A stretch of 64,000 nt of DNA from Hygrocybe punicea (Eukaryota; Basidiomycota; Agaricomycetes; Agaricales; Hygrophoraceae): positions 5,404,891-5,468,890 of the forward strand of contig OY744461.1 of the NCBI GenBank assembly GCA_963556145.1, written 5' to 3'. Made by a program: the position numbers and the translations under genes. Below the pieces are notes generated by a model that searched no databases, had not been told where the DNA came from, and saw only the letters and a program-made list of their open reading frames with translations. Of the stretch, positions 16,150 to 61,712 are shown piece after piece; position 1 is the stretch's first letter; every line of letters starts with the position of its first letter.

Positions 16150-16196
16150 ACTTTTTTAGTGGGCCAGTGCTGCGCATGGCATGAACGAGTTCTTTT
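16150..16196 (-). other. Helentron 3' terminus: hairpin and inverted repeat
   Basis: Top strand ACTTTTTTAG, then GCCAGTGCTGCGCATGGC, which folds with GCCA/TGGC and TGC/GCA stems and a 3-nt loop, then the inverted-repeat word ACGAGTTCTTTT. The same terminus occurs at 3617 (end), 4703, 27270, 29704 (end), 43517 (end) and 54015, always with the boundary at ACTTG/CAAGT. Confidence 0.8.
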
Positions 16197-16595
16197 TTCC
16201 CTCCACTTCTTTGCTGATTTGAGCAATAAGATTAAATTGTATAAAGCATGTTACATATGGCATAAGATACATAGCATGAGTTGCATATTACATATTGATC
16301 TAATAAGCCCACCTCCCACCTCTGTAACATGTAAAAAAAAACTACATAGGGTGTCTTAAGTCTTCATCAACCTCCTCTCTACCTGCCATCTCCCCTGTGT
16401 TGCACCATCATGCAACACTCTTAGCCATGAAGCAATTGTTCAGAGAGCAACAGGTCAACTGCCAAACACAACTGCCCCCCAAACAGTGTGGTGACAATTA
16501 ACTCACATTTGCTCAACCCTACTTCTCCATGACCTTGAATGCTACACAACAGATTACCACATGAAGACAGCCGTGCTTGACCTCAAGGAGGATGC

Positions 16596-19500
16596 TCAAA
16601 GACTCTGAGCATAAATAGCTAATACTAGGTTTCTATTTTTACAGTGTCTGATATCATGGTCTGAAAGTTGTGTAAGGACAGTGTCTCTGGAACAAGATTT
16701 GCCTGTAATCATTCCATCATGATACCATACTTGTTTCTGTGCAGCAATAATACGTGAGGTGAAATGATATTGACCATGATATACAATGCCTCTAAGTTCT
16801 AATGTCTTTGTGCCAGTCTCTGAAACAAATTCTAGTCTATGACTGGTTTTAATATTTTTGAATGGATACTCTAGCACAAGAATGTGTGGTGCTTCATTAT
16901 AAAATACAAGTTGATTCATTCTGCTGTTGCAATCAGGACATCTTCTATTGGTTTTCTGTGACAATGTATCAATCCAATTCATGGTAGACTGTTTAATGGT
17001 GTCATCAGCATGTAACACATAGCCTAGTCTGTCATCAATGGGTTCTTCTGCAAAGTCACAGTGAGAACATTTATGTTGAGAAGAGGCTACAATGTCATTG
17101 ACTTTAAATAACTCCATAGCCAGATTGGCAACACTGATGCCCAAAGTGCCTCTAGGAAAGTCTGTAGGATTCATGTTATGCAGTGTAGTTCTAAGGTGGT
17201 CTCTTAGCTGTTCAAATGCCACATTTTTGTGTAACACCTGTGGAAAACCATGAGACAATGTGGTCAAATGATCATTCATGCTTCTGAATACTGTGGACCA
17301 CTCTGCATGATTGTCTTTCCACAGATTGAAGAGAATCACCAACAATGAGTCATATGCACAGCTGTAGTCATTTCTATCCCAGATCAGTCCAGCTGGAGAG
17401 TTAATGACCTGTTGCATGCTTGTGGATCCTTTGTTGACATGGTCTTTGGTGATCCGAGGCCTTTTTGTTGCTGACTCAATCTTGGTGTCAAGGGAATGTT
17501 TTTGGGTTGAAGTAAGAGCAATTGAGCCTATTGCTGGAACAAATGAAGTTGGAACTGCAGCTGCTTTCTGTTTGCCTTTGCCTTTTTCAACCAATTGCCA
17601 TGGGCTGTCAGGGACTGTATGAGTCAACAATAGTGGATCAGTTCGTGACCATTTAATGGCATTGTCAGTCTTTGCAGGAACATAGTGAATTCCCTTCCAC
17701 TGCTGAAAGTTTCGAAGCATAACTGAGCATGTCCCAGCTTGAATGTGATCAGGCAATTGTCCTTCATATCTAATCCTCATAATCTCATCAAGCAATTCTA
17801 GTTCTCTAAATTCTTGTCTAAGATATCCAGAACATCCTCTAGTAATTACTTTAGTGTCAAAGCCTTGGATAATAACAGTTCCAGCAGCAGAAGCACTTCT
17901 AGACAATGAAGAATAATATGACATATGGTTGAAGCAACTGTTTAAATGCACAACATTGAATGGACGTGTTTTTCCTTGAGCAGCATGAGCAGTCATTGCA
18001 AAGTTAGGAAGTACCCAGACTTGTTGTCTCTCAATGGATTCCTTCAGGTCACTGGGAAAAACACACTGAATTGTCTTGGTGTTTTTTACAATGGGCACTA
18101 CATTGTCAGGAAGTCCTGGAATCTGCACCAGCTTTGGAGGTTTATCCAGTTCAACAAACAAAGTGTCAAGTACCCTTTTGCCATGACTTGCTTTCATTGA
18201 CTGCCAGCCAACAACAAATCCTTCTTGTCCTTTTGTAATGCAGAGCTCAGTGGCATCATTGTTTCGAAGCATCACAGGCATCCCAAGACACAATGAGAGT
18301 TTTCCAGCAAAGTTGTCAGTTGCAGCATGTCGCACTTTCCATATCTCTCTTTGTGTATCAAAGTCTATGTCACTGGATTGATGTATAGCTTTAGATTTGG
18401 ACTTGCTTCTCACGGAATCCTTGTCTTTTCCCCACTTGTCAATAGAATAGAAGTTGGTCAAGTTCTGGTTGGTGTCTGAAGCAAATCTTTCACATCCAAG
18501 AAGATTAATCTGATCCTTCTGTGAGTGAATGCCACATATGATAGGAACATTTCTAAAATCTTTGGAGGCAACATTGGGCTGATCTGGACGTTTGCCTGCA
18601 ATTCTGCTTCTCAAAAATTGAATGTCCTGTGCAGTACATTTGCCATAGCGCATGTTGACAAGGGTGGTTCTGAATAATGCATCCTCAGCTGTTTGGGTTC
18701 TCTGTCTCATGTTTTCTCTGAGAATCACAACTGTGGTCACTTGATGCCAGAGTGCTTTTCCAATTGCAGTTTCCTGAGAATGTGTTGTCAAGGCTGATGT
18801 GATCTGAGTGCCAACTGTTCCACTGTACAACGGTGCACCTCCAACTGGTGGTAACTGTGCAAAGTCTCCAGCAAATATTATGTTGATTCCACCAAATGGC
18901 ATGTCATGTATGTTCAAAGCTTTAGTGAGTCTAGCACTGATTTTGTAGAGATCATGACAAGACAACATTGAGACTTCATCAATGAAAATGTAGTCAACTC
19001 CTTCTAGTCTCCCTTTGAGCTGAGCAATGCCCATTGCTTCATTTCTATTTGACATGTTTGGATTGATGCCCAGGAAGTAGTGATAGGTTGAGCCATTTTG
19101 TAGAGCTGCAGAAGTACCAGTAGGACCAAGAATAACAAATCTGTGAGACTCATGTACATTGTCAAAGAACTCAACAACTGCTTTGATGACTTGTGATTTT
19201 CCAGTGCCAGCCATTCCAGCAATATTCATTTTCAACTGGTCACTGCTGGGAGAGGAAGCATGATTTGCAATAATCCTAAAGGCTCTTTTTTGCTCAGTGT
19301 TCAGGCTGAATTTTCTGACTGTGGCATCAATTAGCTGTTGTCTGTGTGCATTTTCAGCTCTGAAAGTTTGCATCAAGTATGATTGGTCTACAATCAGTAC
19401 CTCATTTTCATTTGAATCAGTGTATATTTTATGTGAAATAGACTTGGAATTTGCAAAATTGTGTTGATTGCGCTCATCTAGTACTTCTTGTCTCTGTTCA

Positions 19501-20456
19501 TGAACAAGTTGTTTCCATTGAGTACCAGGTTGATTCATTTCAACTTCAAGTGGAGCAGAATTTACAGTAATAGAACCATCTGGACATGGATCAAGCCAAC
19601 CAATGTTTCTGACAATGTTTTCAGTGGCATCCATTTGAGCTTTGATTAGTCTACCATGTTGACCAAGTTCAGAATATTTGTTAGTTCCATAATCTGCAGT
19701 ATTCTTTTCTTGCTCATAATTGTCATCTCCAAAGTCACCACCATTTTGAATGTCGTCATCATCCAAGTGTGATATCATGTCTGAAGTCATAAATTGAGGA
19801 CAGGTACCATCTAACACTGCTCCTTGTCTAAGCTGAGCAGAATAGTCATCTCTGGCATCAAGGCATTCATATCTGAGGTTAATGTTGTCCATAATTTCTA
19901 ATTGTCCAACAGTAAATTCATAATCAGTGAATGCTTCATCCCATGATTCCAGTTCACTTTTCAGATCATGACCAGATCTCCATGGTTTGAACAGAGTGAG
20001 CATTGTGGTGCAATAATACTCTCTGTCTCCTCTATCACGTCTGGGCAATGAACCACCAACAAAGTTTGGAACAACATGCTTTGTCTTTTTACTGAATTCT
20101 ATGCAATGTGATTCATATAATGGGTGATCTTCTAGGAAAAGCTTGGTATCTTCTTGGACAGACTCAGTGCTATCAGACTCATTGTCTTCTGAATCACATT
20201 CTATGAAATTGTCATCATCTTTGATGTTCAGATCATCAAACTCTATGGTCAAGTCATTACTGGTAGATACATTAGATTTCGAAGTTTTTTTCTGAGTTGA
20301 AGGTTGTGAATCTGTTTGCAAAAAGTCTAATTCATCATCACTGTTGATTTCATTATGAGGTGGTTGAATATTTCTCTTGACTCTTTCTGCACCCTGTACC
20401 CATTCATATAAATTCATGTCTTCATAATAAGCTGGTCTGTAAATATAGTCATGCAC
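16596..20456 (-). CDS. Helentron Pif1-type helicase with C-terminal cysteine-protease-like domain
   Basis: 1286 codons, open throughout. Residues 1-380 are an acidic linker and the conserved LRYECLDARDDYSAQL segment. The SF1B helicase follows: Walker A GMAGTGKS (about 414-421), Walker B FIDEVSML (about 489), AGDFAQLPPV (about 530), RENMRQ, LGMPVMLRNNDAT, and MTAHAAQGKT near residue 830. From about 1015 a separate domain carries DYSCAYDSL (Cys about 1031), two CxxC pairs (CSHC, CPDC) and GIVYHGQYHF...WYHDG (His about 1229). This Cys-box / zinc-ribbon / His-box order resembles ubiquitin-specific proteases. The start is a GTG just after a shared frame change; in the intact protein this was probably the C-terminal part of one long Rep-helicase. 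The ORF is identical to copy B. Confidence 0.85.
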   Translation of the reverse strand: MHDYIYRPAYYEDMNLYEWVQGAERVKRNIQPPHNEINSDDELDFLQTDSQPSTQKKTSKSNVSTSNDLTIEFDDLNIKDDDNFIECDSEDNESDSTESVQEDTKLFLEDHPLYESHCIEFSKKTKHVVPNFVGGSLPRRDRGDREYYCTTMLTLFKPWRSGHDLKSELESWDEAFTDYEFTVGQLEIMDNINLRYECLDARDDYSAQLRQGAVLDGTCPQFMTSDMISHLDDDDIQNGGDFGDDNYEQEKNTADYGTNKYSELGQHGRLIKAQMDATENIVRNIGWLDPCPDGSITVNSAPLEVEMNQPGTQWKQLVHEQRQEVLDERNQHNFANSKSISHKIYTDSNENEVLIVDQSYLMQTFRAENAHRQQLIDATVRKFSLNTEQKRAFRIIANHASSPSSDQLKMNIAGMAGTGKSQVIKAVVEFFDNVHESHRFVILGPTGTSAALQNGSTYHYFLGINPNMSNRNEAMGIAQLKGRLEGVDYIFIDEVSMLSCHDLYKISARLTKALNIHDMPFGGINIIFAGDFAQLPPVGGAPLYSGTVGTQITSALTTHSQETAIGKALWHQVTTVVILRENMRQRTQTAEDALFRTTLVNMRYGKCTAQDIQFLRSRIAGKRPDQPNVASKDFRNVPIICGIHSQKDQINLLGCERFASDTNQNLTNFYSIDKWGKDKDSVRSKSKSKAIHQSSDIDFDTQREIWKVRHAATDNFAGKLSLCLGMPVMLRNNDATELCITKGQEGFVVGWQSMKASHGKRVLDTLFVELDKPPKLVQIPGLPDNVVPIVKNTKTIQCVFPSDLKESIERQQVWVLPNFAMTAHAAQGKTRPFNVVHLNSCFNHMSYYSSLSRSASAAGTVIIQGFDTKVITRGCSGYLRQEFRELELLDEIMRIRYEGQLPDHIQAGTCSVMLRNFQQWKGIHYVPAKTDNAIKWSRTDPLLLTHTVPDSPWQLVEKGKGKQKAAAVPTSFVPAIGSIALTSTQKHSLDTKIESATKRPRITKDHVNKGSTSMQQVINSPAGLIWDRNDYSCAYDSLLVILFNLWKDNHAEWSTVFRSMNDHLTTLSHGFPQVLHKNVAFEQLRDHLRTTLHNMNPTDFPRGTLGISVANLAMELFKVNDIVASSQHKCSHCDFAEEPIDDRLGYVLHADDTIKQSTMNWIDTLSQKTNRRCPDCNSRMNQLVFYNEAPHILVLEYPFKNIKTSHRLEFVSETGTKTLELRGIVYHGQYHFTSRIIAAQKQVWYHDGMITGKSCSRDTVLTQLSDHDIRHCKNRNLVLAIYAQSL

Positions 20457-20573
20457 AACAGATAAGTCCTATGAATTTTCCCTTTTGATTGTGCAATACT
20501 ACTTTTTCAGAATCAACTTGCATGTCATTCTTGTCATCTGGATTCCATGCTTTAAGTACTTCTCTCACATAGT

Positions 20574-20923
20574 TGTTAAAAGCGGATTATACGGTTGTTG
20601 ACAACGTTAGTTGACACTCGTAAGAAAGAGAAGATTCTTAGAGAGACGGTAGTGAGTCTGATACAAACTTGTAATAATCCGATGGGGTGACTACTACATC
20701 GGATACCAAGTATATATACTAACTACAAATGATGACTAATGATGACAACTAGCCAATAGCGTAAGTCCCTCGGAGAAGGCAGACCCGGATACACTCCAAT
20801 GAGTAAAGAAGATTACATACGAAGATAGTCCTAACGAGTAGTTATCTGATAATAATCAGATAAGCGCATATTCAAACGAATAACGTAGACAGTGATAAAT
20901 GTACGACGTTACCAATTCCAACA
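20574..20923 (-). mobile_element. 350-bp solo LTR inside Helentron copy A
   Basis: TGTTGGAATT...TTTTAACA on the minus strand, inserted in the Rep-helicase linker. Flanks are ATAGT and ACAGT, a 5-bp duplication with one difference. In LTR sense it holds two facing ATCAGATAA sites (20842-20850 and 20855-20863) upstream of a TATATATA element. The same insertion with the same flanks is present in copy B, so it predates the duplication. Confidence 0.92.
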
Positions 20924-21559
20924 ACAGTTTCTCCAGTAGACAGGAATGAATTTGTGACTGGTATAATGGTCAGGGTTGCCAAGCAGATACATTGCAGCCA
21001 TTGGACTACCAATTTCAAGTTTTGCAGTTAAAGCGTTTATGATCTGGGTGATGAGTTTTCTAGCTTTGTCTTTTCTTTTCATGGATCCTCCAAGCATTTC
21101 TGAGTTTCTGTCAAACACACTTCTAATGGTATCAAATATACTATAGGTTTTCAATCCAGGTTTTGTAATGTAGTCAGAAATATATGCTACAATGGCTTTG
21201 ATTGCAGTGCCAGAGAGAAGACTTGTAATGTCAGTGTTGCAACGCAATAGATATGTCACAAGGAGTGTTAATGTATTGATCCAAGCTTCTCCCTTTTTTA
21301 TATTCAATGCACCTGTTTTTGGGTCTACTTGTGTTGATTCAAACAAAGGTCTGGGAAATCTAGCTTTGCATTTACCATGTTTGTTCATGCAACTGGGTCT
21401 ATCTTTTCTCTGGACTTTCTCATTATTTGAACTGTTTCTGCCACAATTATGAACATTGGAGCGTAAAATCAACTGATCAACGGTGTTTGCAAATCTGTCC
21501 CACCATGAATCCATTTGTTTGCAATCATTACAATTTATGTCACCATTCATATCGTACAC
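20924..21559 (-). pseudogene. Helentron Rep, C-terminal part with catalytic tyrosines
   Basis: Continues the Rep protein after a frame change near 21560. It contains a Cys pair and CMNKHGKCKARFPRP (CxxH/C-type zinc site) and the paired-Tyr motif AYISDYITKP (about 21165-21195), the active-site tyrosines of Helitron-type HUH nucleases (Y-x3-Y). The frame is cut by the solo LTR after PVYWRN. The reading resumes on the other side with YVREVLKAWNPDD, about 20573 downwards, and runs to a TGA near 20465 just before the helicase ORF. Known Helitron order (Rep then helicase in one chain) supports one original gene. Confidence 0.8.
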
Positions 21560-21606
21560 ATAGGTGGGGGTGCTTCAGGCAGAGTCTGAGTGGGATCCTT
21601 ATAGTC

Positions 21607-24600
21607 TCATTCAGACTTCTGGTTGACTTTAGCTTTGACTTCATCCATAGTTCCAGTCATAAATTCACCAATGTGCACACTTTCTAAATACTCAACAAAA
21701 GCTTTTTGGAAATCTGAATTTGGATCCATTATTCTATCTCTGATTTCCTGAGGTGACAAACATCCTTTGAGCCATAGTAGCATGTGCATGTGAAGTGTGA
21801 GATGTCCTTGTTGCTCCACTGTGCCATAGTATGCCTTTGTGTCACCATAAAAGCCAGAATAATTTGATCCAACTCCCAGGACATGTTTGATAAATAGTTC
21901 TACTATAAAGTGAAAGAATCTAGCACCAGCCACTGGGTTTTCTGCAATAAGTCTGTAGCGCTCATCATATCCTCTAAGTTCTGGTGTAAAGGTTTCCTGG
22001 GTATCAGCAAAATATAAAGACAGTGGATGCATGTTATCTGCAGGTGAAAATGTGATGAACCAGGAAGGTGCACCCACAAAGGACATCAGAGACCATACTT
22101 CATTTCTCATATATTTCTTGCTTGTGAGTGATCCTTTGACATGACTTCCTACATGATCAATATCTTTAATTAATTGGAAGCAAAGTTTCTCTTCATCTGT
22201 TTCTGGAATGACATGTTCACCATCTTCCATTTTTCTAGCAATGTTATTCAAAACTCCAAGATCAACATCCATCAGTCTTTGTGAAATGTGTTCAAATTTT
22301 GCCTTTTCAGCTAATAAATAGCCAGCTGTTGTGGACTCCTTTATTTGCTCATGGTTGAATCCAATCAAAGGAAAGTGAGGATCTTTCTGAAACCTCTTGT
22401 CATAGTACATTAACAAGTGTCTCTTGTGTTTGATTTCAGAAATCTTGCCTTGAATCAGTGAATTGCCAATTCCACCAAGTCCATAGGGAAACAGCCATGG
22501 CATCATTTGAGGGAATAGCTGAGGATTGTTATAGATGGACTGTGGATCACTCTCATGACCAATTGCCAGGATCTTTTTATTATCCATCAGATGTTTTAGT
22601 GCAATTGCTTTGATGGCTTTGATGCTTTTGGTTGAGTACTCTTCACCAGTCAGACCATGAACTACAAATGGACATATGCCAGTCTCAGTTCCTTCTTCTT
22701 CTTCCATGTCATTGACAGCAGTAGCTTCTGGGTTTTTGTTAACAAATGATTGCCTGTACTCTACCACAACTGGTATATCATTCTCAGGGTATTGATTCAA
22801 GTTATCTTCTGAAATCTCCAAGTCAAAATAGTCACTGTGATTGAGTTTCAACCAGTTCAATGCAATTGCAACTTTATTTCTTCTAACAAGCAATGGTGTG
22901 CGCTCAAAATCAGATTTTGTAGGCTTACATGGTCCAGTATAAATGAATGCCAGCACTTCATCCAACTCATCAACAGGTGGAGGTAAGATGTCATAAATCT
23001 TTGGAGTTGGATTAGCAAATGTGATGGCATTGGCTCTTATTTTGTGCATTCCAGATGAAACTCGAACTATACATCTATTATGTCTCACTCTAGCAATTAA
23101 CAGTTGCTCAGCATAAGACAAGTTGCTCAATTGTTCTGGAACTTTACCAAGCCATAAGCCATTTGCAAGTGACATAGTTGGACATTTGCCTTTGGACAAT
23201 GACTTGCAACACTTTTTGCAAATGTCAAGCAAGTCATCAATGATTACAGGGCCATCTGTAGATTCTATGGGATCATTTACTGAGAAACGCTCTTTTGGTG
23301 TTATACCAGCTTGTTTCAAACAACTCAAATTCAAGTCTGTGTAGCTTTGCAATTGAGAGACTGGAGTCAATCTTCCACAGACAGCACAACCAGATTCAAT
23401 GAAATTGTTTGCAGAGGTATCACTACAAAACCCTGAAATAATAGTGTGTTGCAATTTTGCCGATGGTGGAACTGGAGGGAATTGTATATTGTCTCTGTAT
23501 GTTTGAACAGCCATCTGATTTATTTGTGCATGCTGCTCAGGGTGATTTATGGTATGTCTTCTAACTGCATTTAGTGTGTGTTGTAGATGCTTTTCATTAT
23601 GATCAACTTTGAATTTGGTAATGGCCGCAAGGTTTTGTGTTGCATGCTTCTCAGAATGTTCCAGGTGAAATTTCTGTACAGCTGCAAGGTTTTGTGCTGC
23701 ATGCTTCTCAGGTTGTTCCAAGTGAAATTTCTGCACAGCTGCAAGGTTTTGTGTTGCATGCCTCTCAGGATGTTCCAAGTGAAATTTCTGCACAGCTGTA
23801 AGGTTTTGTGTTGCATGCTTCTCAGGATGTTCTAGATGAAATTTCTGTACAGCTGCTAGATTTTGTTTAGCATGCTTGTCAGGGTTTTTACTCTGAAATC
23901 GCAGTACTGCTGCTAGATTTTGTTTAGCATGCTTGTCAGGATTTTCACTCTGAAATTTTTGTACAGCTGCTTGATGTTGTTTGGCATGCTGGTCAGGGTT
24001 TTCATTATGAAATTTTTGTACAGCAGTCAGATTTTGTTTTGCATGTTTGTCAGGATGTTGTGCTTTAAACTTATTGACTGCTCTGATGTTCAAGGATTTC
24101 TTGTGAATTGCAATTGCTTCTTTATCAACAAATTCAATATATTCAAAGACAGATAAAAATTCAGGGCAGTTGCAGCACACATGAGTCTGAATTGCATTTT
24201 GAATTGATGCATGATTCATTTTTGAGTGAATATGAATGCTATGACTAGCTGCAATCACCTTCAAGTTTGCAATGGTCAACTTTGGAATCAACAGTTCAAA
24301 TGGGTGATTTATAATTACGAGTGACTTCTCAGATGATAATTCCAGAGAGAGTGCTTCATTTTTTGTCATGTAAGAGTAGAATTTACACTTGGCTGTATCT
24401 ATACTAGCATTGTCATTGATTGAAGCAGGCATTAGTTCTTGAAGTGAGAATACATGTGCTTTGCCTCCACCAATACAGTCAATATGAATGTTAGCACTGG
24501 AAGATATATTGTCAGACTTGAAAATGTCAAATAATTTCGAAGTTTTATTATAAATATAGTCTGCAGACACTTGACAAGCTAGGAAATGATGCAGAACTAA

Positions 24601-25398
24601 CAAAAATAGTATGATTGCCCCATTAGCCAATAGAGGTTGTTTTGTAACACATTTCAAGTAAGCTCTGAAGTCATGTTTTCTGAATAGATTCTGTTGAAGT
24701 TTCAACTTAATATACATGCATTTATTAGTCATACTAGTTGTACAATGATATACAGCAAGCAAATCAAACATGTTTAAGATAACTCTGGCATATAGTTCAA
24801 ATAGAAAAGAGGTATGAGTTAATTGATAACTAGATAGAACAAATTCAGTACTGTTGTGGACACTTGTGAATTTTTCAGGGATTTGTGATGTAAAAGAAGA
24901 GGTGGACTGGAGACCAATTTGATGAACAGAGACTAAACTTGGTAAATAAGTGGGGTTTTCATGCTTTGGCAAATTGTCTTTGTAAAAATTCAAAGTAACT
25001 GGACATAGAGTGACATTTGGTGTGACAGAGACAGTTGGTGTGACATGGACAGTTTGTATGACACTTGCAGGAGGCACAAGGCCAATCCCAGTGACAGCAC
25101 ATTGTGCCCAAGACATTGCAATAATAAAAATCATAAGACATTGTGACATGGATGACATTTTTAACATTTTTGTGAACAGGTTTATAGTTTTTTTGAGAAT
25201 AAAAGCTGGATGATAATATGGATATGTCAAATATATCTGGAGAATATGAATAAACAACATACCAATACAAATTCCAGCACAAAGAGCAGTAAAAATCGAA
25301 AAAATCCACAAAATTTTGCATTTTAAGCCTATATATAAATATGTAAACATTTGATCATAGATGGTAAGAGATTCATACCTGAGCCAGAAAAGATCCAC
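21607..25398 (-). CDS. Helentron Rep, N-terminal part with DUF6570-like and HUH domains
   Basis: 1263 codons. The first 90 or so residues are hydrophobic and start at a GTG in AT-rich leader, so the true start is probably later. About residues 300-430 hold a small domain ending in a CCNC cluster. Residues 443-632 are ten perfect-length 19-residue repeats. About 680-850 is a DUF6570-like block (SGCAVCGRL, CKKCCKSL, ANGLWLGKVP, LLIARVRHNRC). Then comes the Helitron_like_N region (FPYGLGG, KRHLLMYYDKRF), motif 1 (APSWFITFSPADN) and the two-His motif HLTLHMHMLLW at about residues 1198-1206. It ends at a TGA (NQKSE*), after which homologous reading continues in another frame. A nuclear DNA-nicking role in rolling-circle transposition follows from the family. 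Confidence 0.85.
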   Translation of the reverse strand: MDLFWLRYESLTIYDQMFTYLYIGLKCKILWIFSIFTALCAGICIGMLFIHILQIYLTYPYYHPAFILKKTINLFTKMLKMSSMSQCLMIFIIAMSWAQCAVTGIGLVPPASVIQTVHVTPTVSVTPNVTLCPVTLNFYKDNLPKHENPTYLPSLVSVHQIGLQSTSSFTSQIPEKFTSVHNSTEFVLSSYQLTHTSFLFELYARVILNMFDLLAVYHCTTSMTNKCMYIKLKLQQNLFRKHDFRAYLKCVTKQPLLANGAIILFLLVLHHFLACQVSADYIYNKTSKLFDIFKSDNISSSANIHIDCIGGGKAHVFSLQELMPASINDNASIDTAKCKFYSYMTKNEALSLELSSEKSLVIINHPFELLIPKLTIANLKVIAASHSIHIHSKMNHASIQNAIQTHVCCNCPEFLSVFEYIEFVDKEAIAIHKKSLNIRAVNKFKAQHPDKHAKQNLTAVQKFHNENPDQHAKQHQAAVQKFQSENPDKHAKQNLAAVLRFQSKNPDKHAKQNLAAVQKFHLEHPEKHATQNLTAVQKFHLEHPERHATQNLAAVQKFHLEQPEKHAAQNLAAVQKFHLEHSEKHATQNLAAITKFKVDHNEKHLQHTLNAVRRHTINHPEQHAQINQMAVQTYRDNIQFPPVPPSAKLQHTIISGFCSDTSANNFIESGCAVCGRLTPVSQLQSYTDLNLSCLKQAGITPKERFSVNDPIESTDGPVIIDDLLDICKKCCKSLSKGKCPTMSLANGLWLGKVPEQLSNLSYAEQLLIARVRHNRCIVRVSSGMHKIRANAITFANPTPKIYDILPPPVDELDEVLAFIYTGPCKPTKSDFERTPLLVRRNKVAIALNWLKLNHSDYFDLEISEDNLNQYPENDIPVVVEYRQSFVNKNPEATAVNDMEEEEGTETGICPFVVHGLTGEEYSTKSIKAIKAIALKHLMDNKKILAIGHESDPQSIYNNPQLFPQMMPWLFPYGLGGIGNSLIQGKISEIKHKRHLLMYYDKRFQKDPHFPLIGFNHEQIKESTTAGYLLAEKAKFEHISQRLMDVDLGVLNNIARKMEDGEHVIPETDEEKLCFQLIKDIDHVGSHVKGSLTSKKYMRNEVWSLMSFVGAPSWFITFSPADNMHPLSLYFADTQETFTPELRGYDERYRLIAENPVAGARFFHFIVELFIKHVLGVGSNYSGFYGDTKAYYGTVEQQGHLTLHMHMLLWLKGCLSPQEIRDRIMDPNSDFQKAFVEYLESVHIGEFMTGTMDEVKAKVNQKSE
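23503..24072 (-). repeat. ten 57-bp units encoding a 19-residue protein repeat
   Basis: Exactly 570 bp = 10 x 57. Unit consensus KFHLEHPEKHATQNLAAVQ. The invariant positions are F/H at 2, P/S/N at 7, H at 10, the QN-type pair and the A-V near the end. The outer units (1 and 8-10) are the most diverged, the pattern expected of an array that grows in its middle. The related Rep pseudogene at 52 kb lacks the whole array. Confidence 0.93.
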
Positions 25399-25437
25399 TG
25401 TAAACCTGTAGGTTAAGAAATAAGCTTATACAATCTA

Positions 25438-26045
25438 AAAAGGTGAAAAAATGCGAAATTTCCACATACTTTAAATGTTGACAGGGAGATTGGCTATCAA
25501 ATGATAGATTATGTCAATGAATGATAATTTACACCAATAAAAGACATTACCAGTGGTCCAAGATACAAAACAGAGCCAGAGAAAAGAAAAAGCATGAAAA
25601 TCTGAAGAATTTTCAACTTTTTTGTCTATAAAAGGAAATATTATGTCAGCATTGGACCCTGAATGGTGCAGGGACATCACCTGATCTAGATCGCTGTTTT
25701 TCGGGGTCTGAATAAGGAAAAATGAGCTTAAACAAGCAAAAAAGGTGAAAAAATGTGAAATTTACACATACTTTGAAAATTGAAAGGGAGATGGGCTGTA
25801 AAATCATATATTATGTTAACAAACAATAAAATATACAAATTGAAAACATTACCAGTGGTCCAGGCAACAAAACAGAGCCACAGGAAATAAAAAGCACAAA
25901 AATCCGAAGAATTTTGCACTTTTATGTCTAAAGAAGGAAATTTTATGTCAGCGTTGGACCCTGAATGGTCCAGGCACATCACCTGATCCAGAAAACATTT
26001 TTTCGGAGTCTGAATATGAAAAACTGAGCTTAAACAAGCCAAAAA
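25438..26045 (-). repeat. about two 302-bp leader repeats upstream of Rep
   Basis: Unit starts AAAAAGGTGAAAAAATG at 25438 and about 25739, with the start of a third at 26041. Each holds TTACCAGTGGTCCA and GACCCTGAATGGT blocks about 150 bp apart. A more degenerate unit extends into 25240-25430. The position between the 5' E-box block and the Rep ORF suggests leader or promoter sequence. The reading frames inside are not convincing genes. Confidence 0.8.
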
Positions 26046-26507
26046 GGTCAAAAAACTCGGACTTAACGCACCAAATGGGGAAGGTGGTGGTTCAGGTTCA
26101 AGTGGCAAAAGCATAATAAGATTCAAAGTCTGGGTTCAAATGGTGATCTGACTAATTATTACATAATCATGATTATGTAAGAAATTTGACCAAGACCAAA
26201 ATTGAAATACAAAGTAATCTAACCATATTGGGTTTGTTTATTTGTATTTGTTTGTCTTATGATCAATTTGCAACATTGCTCAGAAATGCCCAGCGAGAAT
26301 TTCATAAAAGAGCATATTATTTGGCTTTATTTACATCTATTTGTATTTGTTTACTAAAGCTCAAATAAGACTACAAAAAGCAAAACATACAATAAAATAT
26401 GTATGATTGTATTATATAATCATATTTGTTACCTGCAATGAATGTTATAGTAAAAAATATGAAATTTAGAAAACTTCATGTAAAATTACCTTATATGGTT
26501 AGACTTG
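26046..26507 (-). other. Helentron leader between repeats and E-box block
   Basis: AT-rich; no gene. It matches the corresponding stretch of the deletion derivative at about 3050-3200 in the opposite orientation, so it is a conserved part of the element's 5' region. Confidence 0.5.
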
Positions 26508-26596
26508 TCACATGTGACTGTCACCATTGCGATCAGCACAAAATTTGGTATATAATATCAGAAATTACCTTATATGGTTAGAGTAGTCACATGTTA
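26508..26596. promoter_or_regulatory. TCACATGTGA palindromes in Helentron copy A
   Basis: Exact copy at 26508-26517 and a degenerate one (TCACATGTTA) at 26587, again 79 bp apart. They lie about 340-425 bp inside the 5' end and upstream of the Rep gene. Confidence 0.5.
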
Positions 26597-26933
26597 CTGT
26601 CACATGTTACCTGAAATGGTTATATCAGTCAGCAGTTCAAATTTCAGCTGATTCTGATAAGAACTGAGGCTAGTATGAATATTTTGAATATAATTAGAAG
26701 ATGGTTTGTATTTTATAAGACAACCCATATTTGGATGCTTATGTAAGCTTGTCCAAACATGGCCCCAAGTTGATGTTATTTCTTAGTATCAGAAGTATAA
26801 TCATATGTCTTGCCCAAAAATTTTCTCTATAGGCGATCATAGAACATTAATTAATCAATTAATTAATTACGAACCCTCACTGGTCCTGGTTTGATAAAGA
26901 ACGAGTCTTTTAATAAATCAAAAGAACTCGTAA

Positions 26934-31487: not shown

Positions 31488-31607
31488 CACAGGGTGCGCA
31501 GTAGCATACCATGTCACACAGTATCTTGAAAGTACTTGACAAGTATACTAAATATTATTACCATAACATTCAACATGGTATTGTAACAGTATTCAGACAT
31601 AAACTAT

Positions 31608-31841: not shown

Positions 31842-31852
31842 ATCAGGCAACT

Positions 31853-37057: not shown

Positions 37058-37059
37058 AT

Positions 37060-37283
37060 TGAAATAAACTGGTAGGAGGTCACTGTGAATACTAATATAT
37101 TGTGTGATACAAAACTACACTACTCACCTGGTAGGAGGTCACTGTGAATACTGAGGATACACAGTGAGCTCCCCACCAGGTTTGACCGCTTTGGGACAAA
37201 TAGATACAAACAATCAGCCACAATCTTCGAAATCTACTAAGTCCATACTCTCTTGTGGTAGAGTGACTCATCACAACCTAACA
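37060..37283 (-). repeat. copia 5' LTR
   Basis: 224 bp, same ends as the 3' LTR; differs at four positions (near 37094, 37125, 37203 and 37266). It is fused directly to Helentron copy B at 37284 (GATCCTAAC). Confidence 0.95.
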
Positions 37284-38060
37284 GATCCTAACTTTCCTTT
37301 GATTGGATTCAACTATGAGCAAATAAAGGAGTCCACAACAGCTGGCTATTTATTAGCTGAAAAGGCAAAATTTGAACACATTTCACAAAGACTGATGGAT
37401 GTTGATCTTGGAGTTTTGAATAACATTGCTAGAAAAATGGAAGATGGTGAACATGTCATTCCAGAAACAGATGAAGAGAAACTTTGCTTCCAATTAATTA
37501 AAGATATTGATCATGTAGGAAGTCATGTCAAAGGATCACTCACAAGCAAGAAATATATGAGAAATGAAGTATGGTCTCTGATGTCCTTTGTGGGTGCACC
37601 TTCCTGGTTCATCACATTTTCACCTGCAGATAACATGCATCCACTGTCTTTATATTTTGCTGATACCCAGGAAACCTTTACACCAGAACTTAGAGGATAT
37701 GATGAGCGCTACAGACTTATTGCAGAAAACCCAGTGGCTGGTGCTAGATTCTTTCACTTTATAGTAGAACTATTTATCAAACATGTCCTGGGAGTTGGAT
37801 CAAATTATTCTGGCTTTTATGGTGACACAAAGGCATACTATGGCACAGTGGAGCAACAAGGACATCTCACACTTCACATGCACATGCTACTATGGCTCAA
37901 AGGATGTTTGTCACCTCAGGAAATCAGAGATAGAATAATGGATCCAAATTCAGATTTCCAAAAAGCTTTTGTTGAGTATTTAGAAAGTGTGCACATTGGT
38001 GAATTTATGACTGGAACTATGGATGAAGTCAAAGCTAAAGTCAACCAGAAGTCTGAATGA
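37284..38060 (+). pseudogene. Rep fragment of copy B (Helitron_like_N and HUH motif)
   Basis: The open frame (it runs in from the copia LTR at 37164) carries FPLIGFN.EQIKEST, the motif APSWFITFSPADN and the two-His motif HLTLHMHMLLW, ending NQKSE*. Identical to the last 257 residues or so of the copy A Rep N-terminal ORF except near the junction. It lacks the repeat array and the DUF6570-like block. Confidence 0.9.
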
Positions 38061-38107
38061 GACTATAAGGATCCCACTCAGACTCTGCCTGAAGCACCCC
38101 CACCTAT

Positions 38108-38743
38108 GTGTACGATATGAATGGTGACATAAATTGTAATGATTGCAAACAAATGGATTCATGGTGGGACAGATTTGCAAACACCGTTGATCAGTTGATT
38201 TTACGCTCCAATGTTCATAATTGTGGCAGAAACAGTTCAAATAATGAGAAAGTCCAGAGAAAAGATAGACCCAGTTGCATGAACAAACATGGTAAATGCA
38301 AAGCTAGATTTCCCAGACCTTTGTTTGAATCAACACAAGTAGACCCAAAAACAGGTGCATTGAATATAAAAAAGGGAGAAGCTTGGATCAATACATTAAC
38401 ACTCCTTGTGACATATCTATTGCGTTGCAACACTGACATTACAAGTCTTCTCTCTGGCACTGCAATCAAAGCCATTGTAGCATATATTTCTGACTACATT
38501 ACAAAACCTGGATTGAAAACCTATAGTATATTTGATACCATTAGAAGTGTGTTTGACAGAAACTCAGAAATGCTTGGAGGATCCATGAAAAGAAAAGACA
38601 AAGCTAGAAAACTCATCACCCAGATCATAAACGCTTTAACTGCAAAACTTGAAATTGGTAGTCCAATGGCTGCAATGTATCTGCTTGGCAACCCTGACCA
38701 TTATACCAGTCACAAATTCATTCCTGTCTACTGGAGAAACTGT
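38108..38743 (+). pseudogene. Rep C-terminal part of copy B
   Basis: Same frame and residues as 20924-21559: zinc-type CMNKHGKCKARF and catalytic-tyrosine motif AYISDYITKP. It is cut by the solo LTR at 38744; the chain resumes at 39094 with YVREVLKAW and stops near 39217. Confidence 0.85.
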
Positions 38744-39093
38744 TGTTGGAATTGGTAACGTCGTACATTTATCACTGTCTACGTTATTCGTTTGAATATG
38801 CGCTTATCTGATTATTATCAGATAACTACTCGTTAGGACTATCTTCGTATGTAATCTTCTTTACTCATTGGAGTGTATCCGGGTCTGCCTTCTCCGAGGG
38901 ACTTACGCTATTGGCTAGTTGTCATCATTAGTCATCATTTGTAGTTAGTATATATACTTGGTATCCGATGTAGTAGTCACCCCATCGGATTATTACAAGT
39001 TTGTATCAGACTCACTACCGTCTCTCTAAGAATCTTCTCTTTCTTACGAGTGTCAACTAACGTTGTCAACAACCGTATAATCCGCTTTTAACA
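38744..39093 (+). mobile_element. 350-bp solo LTR in copy B
   Basis: TGTTGGAATTGG...CTTTTAACA, flanked by ACTGT and ACTAT (a 5-bp duplication with one difference, shared with copy A). Facing ATCAGATAA sites are at 38804-38812 and 38817-38825; TATATATA is near 38949. Confidence 0.93.
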
Positions 39094-39210
39094 ACTATGT
39101 GAGAGAAGTACTTAAAGCATGGAATCCAGATGACAAGAATGACATGCAAGTTGATTCTGAAAAAGTAGTATTGCACAATCAAAAGGGAAAATTCATAGGA
39201 CTTATCTGTT

Positions 39211-42200
39211 GTGCATGACTATATTTACAGACCAGCTTATTATGAAGACATGAATTTATATGAATGGGTACAGGGTGCAGAAAGAGTCAAGAGAAATATT
39301 CAACCACCTCATAATGAAATCAACAGTGATGATGAATTAGACTTTTTGCAAACAGATTCACAACCTTCAACTCAGAAAAAAACTTCGAAATCTAATGTAT
39401 CTACCAGTAATGACTTGACCATAGAGTTTGATGATCTGAACATCAAAGATGATGACAATTTCATAGAATGTGATTCAGAAGACAATGAGTCTGATAGCAC
39501 TGAGTCTGTCCAAGAAGATACCAAGCTTTTCCTAGAAGATCACCCATTATATGAATCACATTGCATAGAATTCAGTAAAAAGACAAAGCATGTTGTTCCA
39601 AACTTTGTTGGTGGTTCATTGCCCAGACGTGATAGAGGAGACAGAGAGTATTATTGCACCACAATGCTCACTCTGTTCAAACCATGGAGATCTGGTCATG
39701 ATCTGAAAAGTGAACTGGAATCATGGGATGAAGCATTCACTGATTATGAATTTACTGTTGGACAATTAGAAATTATGGACAACATTAACCTCAGATATGA
39801 ATGCCTTGATGCCAGAGATGACTATTCTGCTCAGCTTAGACAAGGAGCAGTGTTAGATGGTACCTGTCCTCAATTTATGACTTCAGACATGATATCACAC
39901 TTGGATGATGACGACATTCAAAATGGTGGTGACTTTGGAGATGACAATTATGAGCAAGAAAAGAATACTGCAGATTATGGAACTAACAAATATTCTGAAC
40001 TTGGTCAACATGGTAGACTAATCAAAGCTCAAATGGATGCCACTGAAAACATTGTCAGAAACATTGGTTGGCTTGATCCATGTCCAGATGGTTCTATTAC
40101 TGTAAATTCTGCTCCACTTGAAGTTGAAATGAATCAACCTGGTACTCAATGGAAACAACTTGTTCATGAACAGAGACAAGAAGTACTAGATGAGCGCAAT
40201 CAACACAATTTTGCAAATTCCAAGTCTATTTCACATAAAATATACACTGATTCAAATGAAAATGAGGTACTGATTGTAGACCAATCATACTTGATGCAAA
40301 CTTTCAGAGCTGAAAATGCACACAGACAACAGCTAATTGATGCCACAGTCAGAAAATTCAGCCTGAACACTGAGCAAAAAAGAGCCTTTAGGATTATTGC
40401 AAATCATGCTTCCTCTCCCAGCAGTGACCAGTTGAAAATGAATATTGCTGGAATGGCTGGCACTGGAAAATCACAAGTCATCAAAGCAGTTGTTGAGTTC
40501 TTTGACAATGTACATGAGTCTCACAGATTTGTTATTCTTGGTCCTACTGGTACTTCTGCAGCTCTACAAAATGGCTCAACCTATCACTACTTCCTGGGCA
40601 TCAATCCAAACATGTCAAATAGAAATGAAGCAATGGGCATTGCTCAGCTCAAAGGGAGACTAGAAGGAGTTGACTACATTTTCATTGATGAAGTCTCAAT
40701 GTTGTCTTGTCATGATCTCTACAAAATCAGTGCTAGACTCACTAAAGCTTTGAACATACATGACATGCCATTTGGTGGAATCAACATAATATTTGCTGGA
40801 GACTTTGCACAGTTACCACCAGTTGGAGGTGCACCGTTGTACAGTGGAACAGTTGGCACTCAGATCACATCAGCCTTGACAACACATTCTCAGGAAACTG
40901 CAATTGGAAAAGCACTCTGGCATCAAGTGACCACAGTTGTGATTCTCAGAGAAAACATGAGACAGAGAACCCAAACAGCTGAGGATGCATTATTCAGAAC
41001 CACCCTTGTCAACATGCGCTATGGCAAATGTACTGCACAGGACATTCAATTTTTGAGAAGCAGAATTGCAGGCAAACGTCCAGATCAGCCCAATGTTGCC
41101 TCCAAAGATTTTAGAAATGTTCCTATCATATGTGGCATTCACTCACAGAAGGATCAGATTAATCTTCTTGGATGTGAAAGATTTGCTTCAGACACCAACC
41201 AGAACTTGACCAACTTCTATTCTATTGACAAGTGGGGAAAAGACAAGGATTCCGTGAGAAGCAAGTCCAAATCTAAAGCTATACATCAATCCAGTGACAT
41301 AGACTTTGATACACAAAGAGAGATATGGAAAGTGCGACATGCTGCAACTGACAACTTTGCTGGAAAACTCTCATTGTGTCTTGGGATGCCTGTGATGCTT
41401 CGAAACAATGATGCCACTGAGCTCTGCATTACAAAAGGACAAGAAGGATTTGTTGTTGGCTGGCAGTCAATGAAAGCAAGTCATGGCAAAAGGGTACTTG
41501 ACACTTTGTTTGTTGAACTGGATAAACCTCCAAAGCTGGTGCAGATTCCAGGACTTCCTGACAATGTAGTGCCCATTGTAAAAAACACCAAGACAATTCA
41601 GTGTGTTTTTCCCAGTGACCTGAAGGAATCCATTGAGAGACAACAAGTCTGGGTACTTCCTAACTTTGCAATGACTGCTCATGCTGCTCAAGGAAAAACA
41701 CGTCCATTCAATGTTGTGCATTTAAACAGTTGCTTCAACCATATGTCATATTATTCTTCATTGTCTAGAAGTGCTTCTGCTGCTGGAACTGTTATTATCC
41801 AAGGCTTTGACACTAAAGTAATTACTAGAGGATGTTCTGGATATCTTAGACAAGAATTTAGAGAACTAGAATTGCTTGATGAGATTATGAGGATTAGATA
41901 TGAAGGACAATTGCCTGATCACATTCAAGCTGGGACATGCTCAGTTATGCTTCGAAACTTTCAGCAGTGGAAGGGAATTCACTATGTTCCTGCAAAGACT
42001 GACAATGCCATTAAATGGTCACGAACTGATCCACTATTGTTGACTCATACAGTCCCTGACAGCCCATGGCAATTGGTTGAAAAAGGCAAAGGCAAACAGA
42101 AAGCAGCTGCAGTTCCAACTTCATTTGTTCCAGCAATAGGCTCAATTGCTCTTACTTCAACCCAAAAACATTCCCTTGACACCAAGATTGAGTCAGCAAC

Positions 42201-43071
42201 AAAAAGGCCTCGGATCACCAAAGACCATGTCAACAAAGGATCCACAAGCATGCAACAGGTCATTAACTCTCCAGCTGGACTGATCTGGGATAGAAATGAC
42301 TACAGCTGTGCATATGACTCATTGTTGGTGATTCTCTTCAATCTGTGGAAAGACAATCATGCAGAGTGGTCCACAGTATTCAGAAGCATGAATGATCATT
42401 TGACCACATTGTCTCATGGTTTTCCACAGGTGTTACACAAAAATGTGGCATTTGAACAGCTAAGAGACCACCTTAGAACTACACTGCATAACATGAATCC
42501 TACAGACTTTCCTAGAGGCACTTTGGGCATCAGTGTTGCCAATCTGGCTATGGAGTTATTTAAAGTCAATGACATTGTAGCCTCTTCTCAACATAAATGT
42601 TCTCACTGTGACTTTGCAGAAGAACCCATTGATGACAGACTAGGCTATGTGTTACATGCTGATGACACCATTAAACAGTCTACCATGAATTGGATTGATA
42701 CATTGTCACAGAAAACCAATAGAAGATGTCCTGATTGCAACAGCAGAATGAATCAACTTGTATTTTATAATGAAGCACCACACATTCTTGTGCTAGAGTA
42801 TCCATTCAAAAATATTAAAACCAGTCATAGACTAGAATTTGTTTCAGAGACTGGCACAAAGACATTAGAACTTAGAGGCATTGTATATCATGGTCAATAT
42901 CATTTCACCTCACGTATTATTGCTGCACAGAAACAAGTATGGTATCATGATGGAATGATTACAGGCAAATCTTGTTCCAGAGACACTGTCCTTACACAAC
43001 TTTCAGACCATGATATCAGACACTGTAAAAATAGAAACCTAGTATTAGCTATTTATGCTCAGAGTCTTTGA
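39211..43071 (+). CDS. helicase with C-terminal cysteine-protease-like domain, copy B
   Basis: 1286 codons; the predicted protein is the same as that at 16596-20456, with every helicase motif and the Cys / CxxC / His-box C-terminal domain. It starts at a GTG directly after the shared frame change. No promoter of its own remains on the 5' side, where the Rep gene is truncated at the copia junction, so expression would depend on the copia LTR region or the nested solo LTR (38744-39093), which is in the sense orientation with a TATA element 260 bp upstream. Confidence 0.85.
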   Translation: MHDYIYRPAYYEDMNLYEWVQGAERVKRNIQPPHNEINSDDELDFLQTDSQPSTQKKTSKSNVSTSNDLTIEFDDLNIKDDDNFIECDSEDNESDSTESVQEDTKLFLEDHPLYESHCIEFSKKTKHVVPNFVGGSLPRRDRGDREYYCTTMLTLFKPWRSGHDLKSELESWDEAFTDYEFTVGQLEIMDNINLRYECLDARDDYSAQLRQGAVLDGTCPQFMTSDMISHLDDDDIQNGGDFGDDNYEQEKNTADYGTNKYSELGQHGRLIKAQMDATENIVRNIGWLDPCPDGSITVNSAPLEVEMNQPGTQWKQLVHEQRQEVLDERNQHNFANSKSISHKIYTDSNENEVLIVDQSYLMQTFRAENAHRQQLIDATVRKFSLNTEQKRAFRIIANHASSPSSDQLKMNIAGMAGTGKSQVIKAVVEFFDNVHESHRFVILGPTGTSAALQNGSTYHYFLGINPNMSNRNEAMGIAQLKGRLEGVDYIFIDEVSMLSCHDLYKISARLTKALNIHDMPFGGINIIFAGDFAQLPPVGGAPLYSGTVGTQITSALTTHSQETAIGKALWHQVTTVVILRENMRQRTQTAEDALFRTTLVNMRYGKCTAQDIQFLRSRIAGKRPDQPNVASKDFRNVPIICGIHSQKDQINLLGCERFASDTNQNLTNFYSIDKWGKDKDSVRSKSKSKAIHQSSDIDFDTQREIWKVRHAATDNFAGKLSLCLGMPVMLRNNDATELCITKGQEGFVVGWQSMKASHGKRVLDTLFVELDKPPKLVQIPGLPDNVVPIVKNTKTIQCVFPSDLKESIERQQVWVLPNFAMTAHAAQGKTRPFNVVHLNSCFNHMSYYSSLSRSASAAGTVIIQGFDTKVITRGCSGYLRQEFRELELLDEIMRIRYEGQLPDHIQAGTCSVMLRNFQQWKGIHYVPAKTDNAIKWSRTDPLLLTHTVPDSPWQLVEKGKGKQKAAAVPTSFVPAIGSIALTSTQKHSLDTKIESATKRPRITKDHVNKGSTSMQQVINSPAGLIWDRNDYSCAYDSLLVILFNLWKDNHAEWSTVFRSMNDHLTTLSHGFPQVLHKNVAFEQLRDHLRTTLHNMNPTDFPRGTLGISVANLAMELFKVNDIVASSQHKCSHCDFAEEPIDDRLGYVLHADDTIKQSTMNWIDTLSQKTNRRCPDCNSRMNQLVFYNEAPHILVLEYPFKNIKTSHRLEFVSETGTKTLELRGIVYHGQYHFTSRIIAAQKQVWYHDGMITGKSCSRDTVLTQLSDHDIRHCKNRNLVLAIYAQSL

Positions 43072-43632
43072 GCATCCTCCTTGAGGTCAAGCACGGCTGT
43101 CTTCATGTGGTAATCTGTTGTGTAGCATTCAAGGTCATGGAGAAGTAGGGTTGAGCAAATGTGAGTTAATTGTCACCACACTGTTTGGGGGGCAGTTGTG
43201 TTTGGCAGTTGACCTGTTGCTCTCTGAACAATTGCTTCATGGCTAAGAGTGTTGCATGATGGTGCAACACAGGGGAGATGGCAGGTAGAGAGGAGGTTGA
43301 TGAAGACTTAAGACACCCTATGTAGTTTTTTTTTACATGTTACAGAGGTGGGAGGTGGGCTTATTAGATCAATATGTAATATGCAACTCATGCTATGTAT
43401 CTTATGCCATATGTAACATGCTTTATACAATTTAATCTTATTGCTCAAATCAGCAAAGAAGTGGAGGGAAAAAAGAACTCGTTCATGCCATGCGCAGCAC
43501 TGGCCCACTAAACAAGTTCTGCAAGGTTAGGTTGGGGCGGGTGATGTGTCGTTTCTGTGAGAAGTCAATCAGCACGAATTTATTGGTTTCGAATCTGGAA
43601 TTATGGTCTCTGGACCAGTCGTAGGCGCCGTT

Positions 43633-50844: not shown

Positions 50845-50891
50845 TGTGTATTAGAGGTATAGAAATGCTTGGGTTATTTAAATTTAAAACT

Positions 50892-59940: not shown

Positions 59941-60144
59941 GCAGCGCCATATCAATTGATACATGCCTGCCATTTGCGAGGAGAACAGGACTTGCGAGTA
60001 CCTGAGTATCCACGGGTAGCCGACCCGTGGATCCAAGTCTGGTGTGTTGAAAAACCCACGCGGATCTGAGTAAGCAGATTTTGTTTAAAAAAACTCGCAA
60101 GTTTGGATGCAGATCACCCATGGATGGACTCGTGACATGCCTTA

Positions 60145-61712
60145 ATCTATATCGCCTTCATTAATACAAATTGATCTTGTTGATATACCATCATGAAACC
60201 ACACCATTTTGTTGACGAATATGTGAGCAGTAAAATGTGCATCACCAAAGTACACAATTCCTCTCAATGTGAAAGCAGTGGATATGTCATCAATTGACAA
60301 GTTTATAACTTGACTAACTATTAAATTCTCAATAGAGTCAAGTGTAAACATGATTAGAGGTGGAATTTTGTTAAATGCAATAAATTTAGTAATCTCTCCC
60401 CAACACAATTGACATCTATGTCGTTGTCTATTAACTATAATTTGAGCAAGACATGCTGAGATTGTTCCAGAAAATGAATATGAACAATGAAAGATGGCAT
60501 CACATATGTCATTTTCTAGAATGGTTATGTTTTCACAATTCATACATTTAAGACAAGTTGAAGTCATTGGTTCATTTGCTTTCATTATATAATGAGCCAA
60601 ATCACTTATGGCAATGCTAACTTGACCATAAGGAATTATTTCGGGTTTATCTTGATGCAATAAATGTCTGATTGTATTTCTAACTGTTTCTAAATCTGTT
60701 GTGTTATTCTTTGATCGTTTGAATCCTAAGTTCAAAATCTTTAATATTTCATTGATGCTATTGAATCTTTTTTTCCAACTTGATGGATCTTCATTCCATA
60801 TTGCTAGTAATATTGTAAAGAGTGAATCATAAACACAGCTCCAATCTTGCGCATCCCATATAAACCCTTTTGGTTCATTTAATTCAATAGTACTTCTTTT
60901 TTGTCTTTTTTTCACTATAGAAGATGAACTTACAAGTTGTTCTAATTTTCGTTTTTTATTTTGCAATACATTGGCTGTGGAATTTTTATGAGCAAAAGTG
61001 ACTGGAACAGTTCCTTTTGCAGGAACAAAGTTGAGGTTTCTGAAATCTGCCTTTTTATTTTTGTTCATAGGTTTAATTAATTGCCATGGAGAGGGCTATG
61101 CTGTGTATTGGTTTAGTTGCTCTGTGGCTTTCCATGCAATAGCATGATGAATGTTTTTTGGAACATATGACTTTCCTTTCCATTTTTTAAATTGATCAAT
61201 GATAGCATTTCGCTGATCTCCCTTGACATGGTCTGGTAAGAGTCCTTGATATTTCAGTTTGGTAATCTCATCAAGCAGTTCTAATTCCCTGAATTCTTGC
61301 CTGAGATATCCAGAAGCACCACTTTAGGATCAAAGCCTTGCATGATGATAGTTCCTGCTGCAGATGCACTTCTTGATAAGCAAGTATAATAGGATTGGTG
61401 GTTTCTACAACTACTGAGGTCAACTACATTGTTAGGATGAGTACGTCCTTGACATGCATAATCAGTCATTGCAAAATTAGGTAGTACCAACACTTGTTCT
61501 CTTGACAAAGATATCACATCATCATTGGGTAATGAGCACATGGTGAAAGTGACATGTTTTGTAATCAGCACCACATTTTCAGGAAGTTCTTCTTTGTTGA
61601 TTTTTTTTGGAGGATTCAATAATCTGACAAATAAAGTGTCCAGTATGATTTGTTGTTCTGGACCTATTGCATTCTGCCAACCAACAACCATGCCCTCGGC
61701 TCCTTTGGTAAT
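60145..61712 (-). pseudogene. diverged Helentron helicase: C-terminal helicase and protease-like domain
   Basis: Frame 61691-61281 holds MVVGWQ, the motif MTDYACQGRTHPNNVV and YTCLSRSASAAGT. A frame change near 61320, then SGYLRQEF...ELLDEI, a TAG near 61099, and the 61068-60142 frame with the protease-like domain: DWSCVYDSL (Cys box), CxxC pairs (CMNC, CQLC) and LRGIVYFGDAHFT...WFHDG (His box). It keeps every putative catalytic position of copy A despite strong divergence elsewhere, which argues that the domain is real. The final codons lie at 57716-57789. Inactive now because of the frame changes and insertions. Confidence 0.85.

Follow-up and report, generated by a model that had tools for sequence, protein, structure and literature searches.

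A predicted ubiquitin-specific protease fold at the C-terminus of a fungal Helitron transposase

A helicase-protease reading frame in Hygrocybe punicea

The window analysed here is a 64,000-nt stretch of Hygrocybe punicea DNA (assembly GCA_963556145.1, contig OY744461.1, positions 5,404,891-5,468,890, forward strand), and it contains a Helitron whose transposase ends in a domain with the predicted fold of ubiquitin-specific proteases (USPs). The domain lies in a minus-strand open reading frame (ORF) of 1290 aa, read from stop to stop, at positions 16596..20468 of the window (copy A). Residues 389-614 of this ORF (18627..19304, minus strand) match the PIF1 helicase family in Pfam (PF05970, E 1.5e-22). 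After a linker, residues 1021-1290 (16599..17408, minus strand) were assigned as a USP-fold cysteine protease domain from an AlphaFold2 model and the structures that it retrieved with Foldseek and VIA-align. The original prediction had placed SCAYDSL, two CxxC pairs, YHGQYHF and WYHDG in the C-terminal 270 or so residues, and all of them were found there: SCAYDSL starts at residue 1036, YHGQYHF ends at Phe1236 and WYHDG starts at residue 1248.

A second copy of the ORF, not mentioned in that prediction, is present on the plus strand at 39199..43071 (copy B; USP domain at 42259-43068) and is identical to copy A (0 differences over 3873 nt). In addition, a diverged relic on the minus strand at 60142..61095 encodes the linker and the USP domain, with the C-terminal tail of the domain displaced to 57716-57789, the end of the ORF at 57716-57961. 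As had been predicted, the motifs SCVYDSL, YFGDAHFT and WFHDG and the two CxxC pairs are all retained in the relic ORF itself, and the tail stands apart in the other ORF.

The C-terminal domain has a predicted USP fold

The AlphaFold2 model of residues 1021-1290 has a pLDDT of 95.8 and a pTM of 0.92, and model residues 4-270 make up a complete USP fold. In the comparison of the model with the Protein Data Bank (PDB), all 50 rows shown by Foldseek and by VIA-align were USPs or the USP-like protein USPL1; no OTU, Josephin or MINDY structure was among the 50 rows shown by each aligner, and families beyond these rows are possible. The USP-like reading had been proposed from the motifs with a fold prediction as its test, and the predicted fold is indeed that of a USP, with the putative catalytic residues at the expected secondary-structure places: Cys1037 at the start of the first helix (model residues 17-32), His1235 opening a strand and Asp1251 following the next strand. 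The order Cys1037-His1235-Asp1251 is that of the USP triad. In a library of viral structures, most of the named top rows were viral ubiquitin hydrolases, and coronavirus papain-like proteases ranked lower; many rows carried no name.

The domain did not reach the curated cut-off of the Pfam family UCH (PF00443). Weak matches were obtained for 3 of 83 relatives (best E 0.011) and were judged to be noise. Given that it stays below this cut-off, the domain is not filed under that sequence family and is called USP-fold. The host genome has 20 PF00443 matches, all of them at places other than those listed for the Helitron domain. The PF15499 profile gave no match in the host genome and the control likewise gave none, so this search is uninformative. 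Two relatives bear the UniRef name 'USP domain-containing', indicating that automatic annotation had already seen the domain.

The Helitron domain has the whole fold in common with the USP/UBP deubiquitinases (MEROPS C19; PF00443; e.g. USP54, USP46/USP12 and CYLD), and the order of elements is alike, namely a Cys box, CxxC/CxxC fingers, a His box with an aromatic residue, and an Asp. It differs from the matched USPs in its low identity to them (10-16%, below Pfam detection), in its length (270 aa; most of the matched USP chains are longer) and in its fusion to a transposase. The model supports the view that the C-terminal domain is an intact-looking relative of the USPs.

The structural matches also include USPL1, a C98 isopeptidase with specificity for SUMO, whereas for the Helitron domain ubiquitin is the presumed substrate. 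The Z scores of USPL1 and the USPs were within 1 of each other, and it is possible, if rather unlikely, that the domain is a USPL1-like protease specific for SUMO or NEDD8 and acts on sumoylated silencing or repair factors. The USPs proper, however, score equally or higher and take most rows in both structure rankings.

The predicted active site and zinc residues are conserved

Conservation was counted in an alignment of 83 rows. The predicted catalytic Cys1037 in the Cys box SCAYD (17358..17360; this and the following sites are on the minus strand) is present in 81 rows, whereas the predicted catalytic His1235 and, within WYHDG, the predicted catalytic Asp1251 (16716..16718) are present in 83/83. 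The residue after the His (16761..16766 for the pair) is an aromatic gatekeeper, Phe1236 in copy A, with Phe at this place in 78 of the 83 rows and Tyr in the other 5. The first zinc knuckle, C1134-x-x-C1137 (17058..17069), has its cysteines in 83/83 and 79/83 rows, and the second, C1177-x-x-C1180 (16929..16940), in 82/83 each; both knuckles align with the finger cysteines of USP12/46. This motif conservation is far above chance. Two CxxC knuckles in the fingers are found in many USPs, not in all.

Among the listed relatives, 105 have a domain longer than 200 aa, and of these 102 retain the complete triad and 104 the complete set of zinc cysteines. The exceptions to the triad are P0185 (a gap at the Asp), P0212 (Asn at the Asp) and P0224 (Cys at the His and a gap at the Asp); Asn in place of the triad Asp is also used by active USPs. 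Likewise, the triad and zinc cysteines were retained in all 59 genomic loci fetched with the domain; these are best matches, some of them overlapping, and both window copies are among them. Inactive USP-fold proteins exist, and together with the three exceptions this would fit a catalytically spent scaffold whose fold is kept for binding ubiquitin or a partner. A complete triad in 102/105 domains and in 59/59 best-matching genomic loci speaks against such a scaffold, which we consider improbable.

The Asp-x-His signature of tegument-type deubiquitinases is not conserved in the Helitron domain, since an Asp two residues before His1235 occurs in 26 of 83 rows, against 83 of 83 for Asp1251. The suggestion that a USP-like protease in such an element would be a distinct acquisition is supported by this difference and by the USP-type fold of the rows shown. 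A His-aromatic pair is a mark of proteases that cleave after Gly-Gly, that is, deubiquitinases and also SUMO and NEDD8 proteases, including USPL1, according to a published survey (PMC7391069). With a conserved triad and His-aromatic pair and no conserved Asp-x-His, the domain is called a USP-fold isopeptidase, for which ubiquitin is the likeliest, as yet unproven, substrate.

The domain is fused to the transposase and shares its history

The transposase of this lineage has the domain order DUF6570, HUH Rep, PIF1 helicase, linker and USP. A search with the helicase of a relative, P0013, gave 902 matches, of which the best 120 were listed. The USP-fold domain stands at the end of 111 of these 120 proteins; the remaining nine break off within the helicase or the linker or just as the domain begins, so that every protein among the best 120 that extends past the place of the domain carries it. 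Thirteen relatives bear an organism name, and as far as is known these are all Agaricomycetes: Galerina (Agaricales), Hygrophoropsis (Boletales), Mycena, Collybia, Tricholoma, Favolaschia and Flammula. Twelve pattern matches in viral contigs and 18 in bacterial or archaeal genomes were considered as further relatives, and none was confirmed.

The histories of helicase and domain were compared for 111 proteins in which both are near-complete, of 122 considered, including the window copy. Pairwise distances of the two parts were correlated at 0.89, a value reached in 0 of 2000 permutations. Of the tree splits with support of at least 0.9 (61 and 56 in the two trees), 40 were shared, and only 5 and 4, respectively, were contradicted. 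Such congruent histories are accounted for by one fusion followed by joint descent. Gene capture by Helitrons is well established, and the domain might on that ground be a recently captured fragment of a host gene carried as a functionless passenger. This is contradicted by its presence in 111 of the 120 best relatives, by the largely congruent histories, and by the purifying selection and several subfamilies described below, so that, unless sampling misleads, a passenger is very improbable indeed.

Mean pairwise identity among these proteins was 63% for the helicase, 34% for the domain and 35% for the stretch between them. The observation in the original prediction that the linker has drifted is true, but the domain is on average conserved no better.

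A stand-alone, domesticated USP gene was also considered, as 83 of 118 short relatives have no detectable helicase remnant, and no case for it could be made. In these short relatives the domain starts within 1-108 residues of the N-terminus, and short contigs are the source of most of them, which makes fragments likelier than domesticated genes.

The position of the protease at the very end of one long polyprotein also invites the idea of self-processing, in which the domain would cut the transposase, for example at an F-x-G-G between Rep and helicase, and free the Rep, the helicase and the protease. A motif search matched 77 of the 120 listed relatives (the 43 unmatched rows are left out of the count); in 73 of these 77 an F-x-G-G precedes the LPR motif, and the aromatic gatekeeper predicts cleavage after Gly-Gly. 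In the 16596-20468 ORF, the F-x-G-G-x-L segment before the helicase is VPNFVGGSLPRRD. Against self-processing, the F-x-G-G site is not one of the four Gly-Gly positions that exceed 80% conservation in a quick alignment covering 80 of the 90 relatives longer than 2000 aa; moreover, USPs generally bind folded ubiquitin and not a linear peptide. Processing at this site is a weak lead, and self-processing as the task of the domain seems doubtful.

Genomic copies are numerous and the domain is under purifying selection

The host genome (92.2 Mb in 42 contigs) was searched with the domain, and at least 142 scored matches, some of them partial, came out of 793 candidates. With a distant domain as query, 146 matches were obtained that overlap the first list, and they revealed further subfamilies, of which one was read. 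Several genomic matches lie inside single ORFs of about 2,800-2,900 aa. The Rep-helicase stretch was found in a stop-free ORF of at least 2400 aa at 13 places, and at 11 of these the domain is in an equally long ORF; of the remaining two, one has the domain about 4.8 kb further on in a separate short ORF and the other has no listed domain. A further subfamily, represented for example by C40:3266356, C40:3522896, C40:3577679, C1:4936742 and C33:3534490, has ORFs of up to 2926 aa and scores that are the same or nearly so at many places, and is perhaps the most recently active one.

Selection was assessed from the ratio of nonsynonymous to synonymous substitution (dN/dS), calculated pairwise by the Nei-Gojobori method with our own script for the window copy and seven fetched copies that had been chosen for their long open frames. 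Of the 28 pairs, seven include one distant copy, for which dS is saturated, and two are nearly identical, leaving 19 pairs, which are not independent of one another. In these 19 pairs, dN/dS was 0.19-0.36 for the USP domain, 0.29-0.45 for the linker and 0.06-0.15 for the helicase, and the domain was below the linker in 17. The USP domain is under purifying selection in the long genomic copies. Most copies of about 58-61% identity carry a TAA in frame, which had been taken for a truncation of the protease; in the eight copies inspected, out of the 20 fetched, this TAA is the normal stop codon following AIYA.

The element has Helitron2-type termini

Copy comparison placed the whole of copy A at 16151..26933 on the minus strand, with its 5' end at 26933 and its 3' end at 16151. 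The 5' end is common to four other genomic copies. The 3' end is common to seven termini in the window and to three of the five genomic 3' flanks fetched, and was not found in the other two. Helentrons and Helitron2 elements insert at TT or in T-rich targets; all seven 3' ends in the window are followed by T, which may belong either to the target or to the element. Further copies of this 3' end at 3618, 4703, 27270, 29704 and 54015 mark non-autonomous or truncated relatives.

At the 5' end is a terminal hairpin (26901..26933, minus strand), the first arm of which is repeated in inverted orientation over 12 nt at a distance of about 34 nt from the 3' end. The 3' subterminal arm of this asymmetric terminal inverted repeat was located at 16185..16196 (minus strand) by eye, from the repeat computed for the genomic loci L060/L059, and a 3' hairpin at 16163..16180 (minus strand) stands 12 nt before the 3' end. 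Upstream of the helicase, the Helitron_like_N domain, an HUH Rep with an L-H-M-H motif, lies at 21775..22422 (minus strand; PF14214, E 1.6e-32), and a DUF6570 domain lies upstream of the Rep at 22795..23193 (minus strand; PF20209, E 2.8e-43). PF14214 and PF05970 thus occur in one element, as expected of a Helitron, and in relatives both are in one protein. Crude, narrow patterns recovered the HUH pair in 48 and the Tyr region in 56 of the 90 relatives longer than 2000 aa.

According to PMC5148889 and PMC4067079, Helitron2 is marked by an asymmetric terminal inverted repeat, a hairpin at both ends and the lack of an endonuclease, and the Helentron adds an AP endonuclease at the C-terminal side of the Rep/helicase. 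Copy A has the repeat and both hairpins. No endonuclease family appeared in the Pfam lists of the window ORFs and the relatives, where the C-terminus is the USP domain, and the element is therefore not a Helentron in the strict sense. The label 'Helentron' in the original prediction is right as to the type of termini, which Helitron2 and Helentrons share, but not as to an endonuclease domain, none being listed by Pfam.

The Helitron2 of fungi described by Chellapan et al. (2016, PMC5148889) likewise combines Rep and PIF1 in one protein with these terminal marks and no endonuclease; as far as its available text goes, it has no C-terminal protease, and the word 'protease' is absent from the main text. 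Helentron proteins have been reported in fungi by their Rep motif (PMC4067079), and a study of Pleurotus Helitrons did not find, in their RepHel ORFs, the cysteine protease that animal elements have (PMC4289320).

A deubiquitinase-class domain in a rolling-circle transposon has precedents in animals. The cysteine proteases of Helentrons described in the available text of Thomas et al. (2014, PMC4067079) are likewise encoded by rolling-circle elements and keep their active-site residues; they have an OTU fold and sit in additional ORFs, whereas here a USP fold is fused to the Rep-helicase. The VTD domains of animal Helitrons (Erven et al. 2022, PMC9741609, available text) are also papain-fold deubiquitinases inside a rolling-circle protein and have a similar proposed role, but they have an invariable Asp-x-His active site and occur in Helentrons with an AP endonuclease, unlike the USP-fold domain. 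The same text reports Helitron VTDs from vertebrates, insects, cnidarians and molluscs, and fungal VTDs fused to an RBR ligase and not to a Helitron; for the animal domains activity on ubiquitin was shown, and they were proposed to prevent the proteasomal loss of transposition proteins. Deubiquitinase-class domains (OTU, VTD) are thus known from animal Helitrons, and in the text available from open-licence PMC papers we found no USP in any Helitron and no deubiquitinase in a fungal one.

A probable isopeptidase of the transposition complex

With the predicted fold, the conserved triad and zinc site, the joint history with the helicase, the purifying selection and the long open ORFs established by computation, it seems probable that the last transposase domain of this Agaricomycete Helitron2 lineage is a USP-fold isopeptidase (papain-like, clan CA) that removes ubiquitin or a ubiquitin-like modifier. 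The Rep-helicase would bring the isopeptidase to donor or target DNA and tether it there, and the domain might then remove ubiquitin, or a ubiquitin-like modifier ending in Gly-Gly, from the transposase itself or from host proteins close by. By analogy with the proposals for animal OTU and VTD domains, the complex could in this way escape proteasomal clearance, or ubiquitin-dependent silencing could be lifted. The fusion suggests that the element uses ubiquitin removal when moving or escaping control.

The best reading of its origin is that a third deubiquitinase class was recruited by rolling-circle transposons and fused early in an Agaricomycete lineage. A bolder version, in which an obligate, ancestral USP (the third recruitment after OTU and VTD) both matures the polyprotein at the conserved Gly-Gly and deubiquitinates the transposition complex, would resemble the dual role of some viral papain-like proteases; we hold it to be unlikely.

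If the domain is active, rolling-circle transposons have recruited a deubiquitinase at least three separate times, from three enzyme classes, and ubiquitin removal would be a recurrent need of rolling-circle transposition and not a curiosity. In the present lineage the protease and the transposase are one protein, and every listed relative that extends past the place of the domain has it, so that one substitution in the active site would be enough to test whether it is needed. The genome of this fungus, with its long open ORFs, offers a natural system for such a test.

Damage to the window copies and neighbouring elements

In both window copies the Rep region is broken, whereas the USP domain is undamaged. 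Between the Rep and helicase parts lies an insertion of 350 bp resembling a long terminal repeat (LTR), in copy A at 20574..20923 (minus strand), 94% identical to 11254-11603; the two LTR-like insertions are seated in two different Helitron coding regions. Coding matches of copy A break at the 20574-20923 insertion, and the frame changes about 0.6 kb upstream, near 21540. Tandem repeats occupy 23624-24059 and 25418-26055 in the 5' part of the Helitron, and a 336-bp unit recurs in other genomic copies.

Copy B extends over 37283..43516 on the plus strand and is cut on its 5' side at the LTR of a Copia element. The inverted pair 16150-22384 and 37283-43517 is 99.95% identical over 6235 bp, which, together with the cut at the Copia LTR, hints at a recent duplication or recombination, or at an assembly effect. 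The Copia element itself (31598-37283) has 234-bp LTRs that are 97.9% identical and an open polyprotein of 1485 aa; no matching target duplication was seen by eye on its two sides. A second, broken Helitron lineage with Helitron_like_N and PIF1 matches is present at 11522-13661, where DUF6570 had no match in the four ORFs scanned. Finally, a degenerate LTR element, perhaps Gypsy-like, with RVT_1 and weak aspartyl protease matches, spans 43633-50850.
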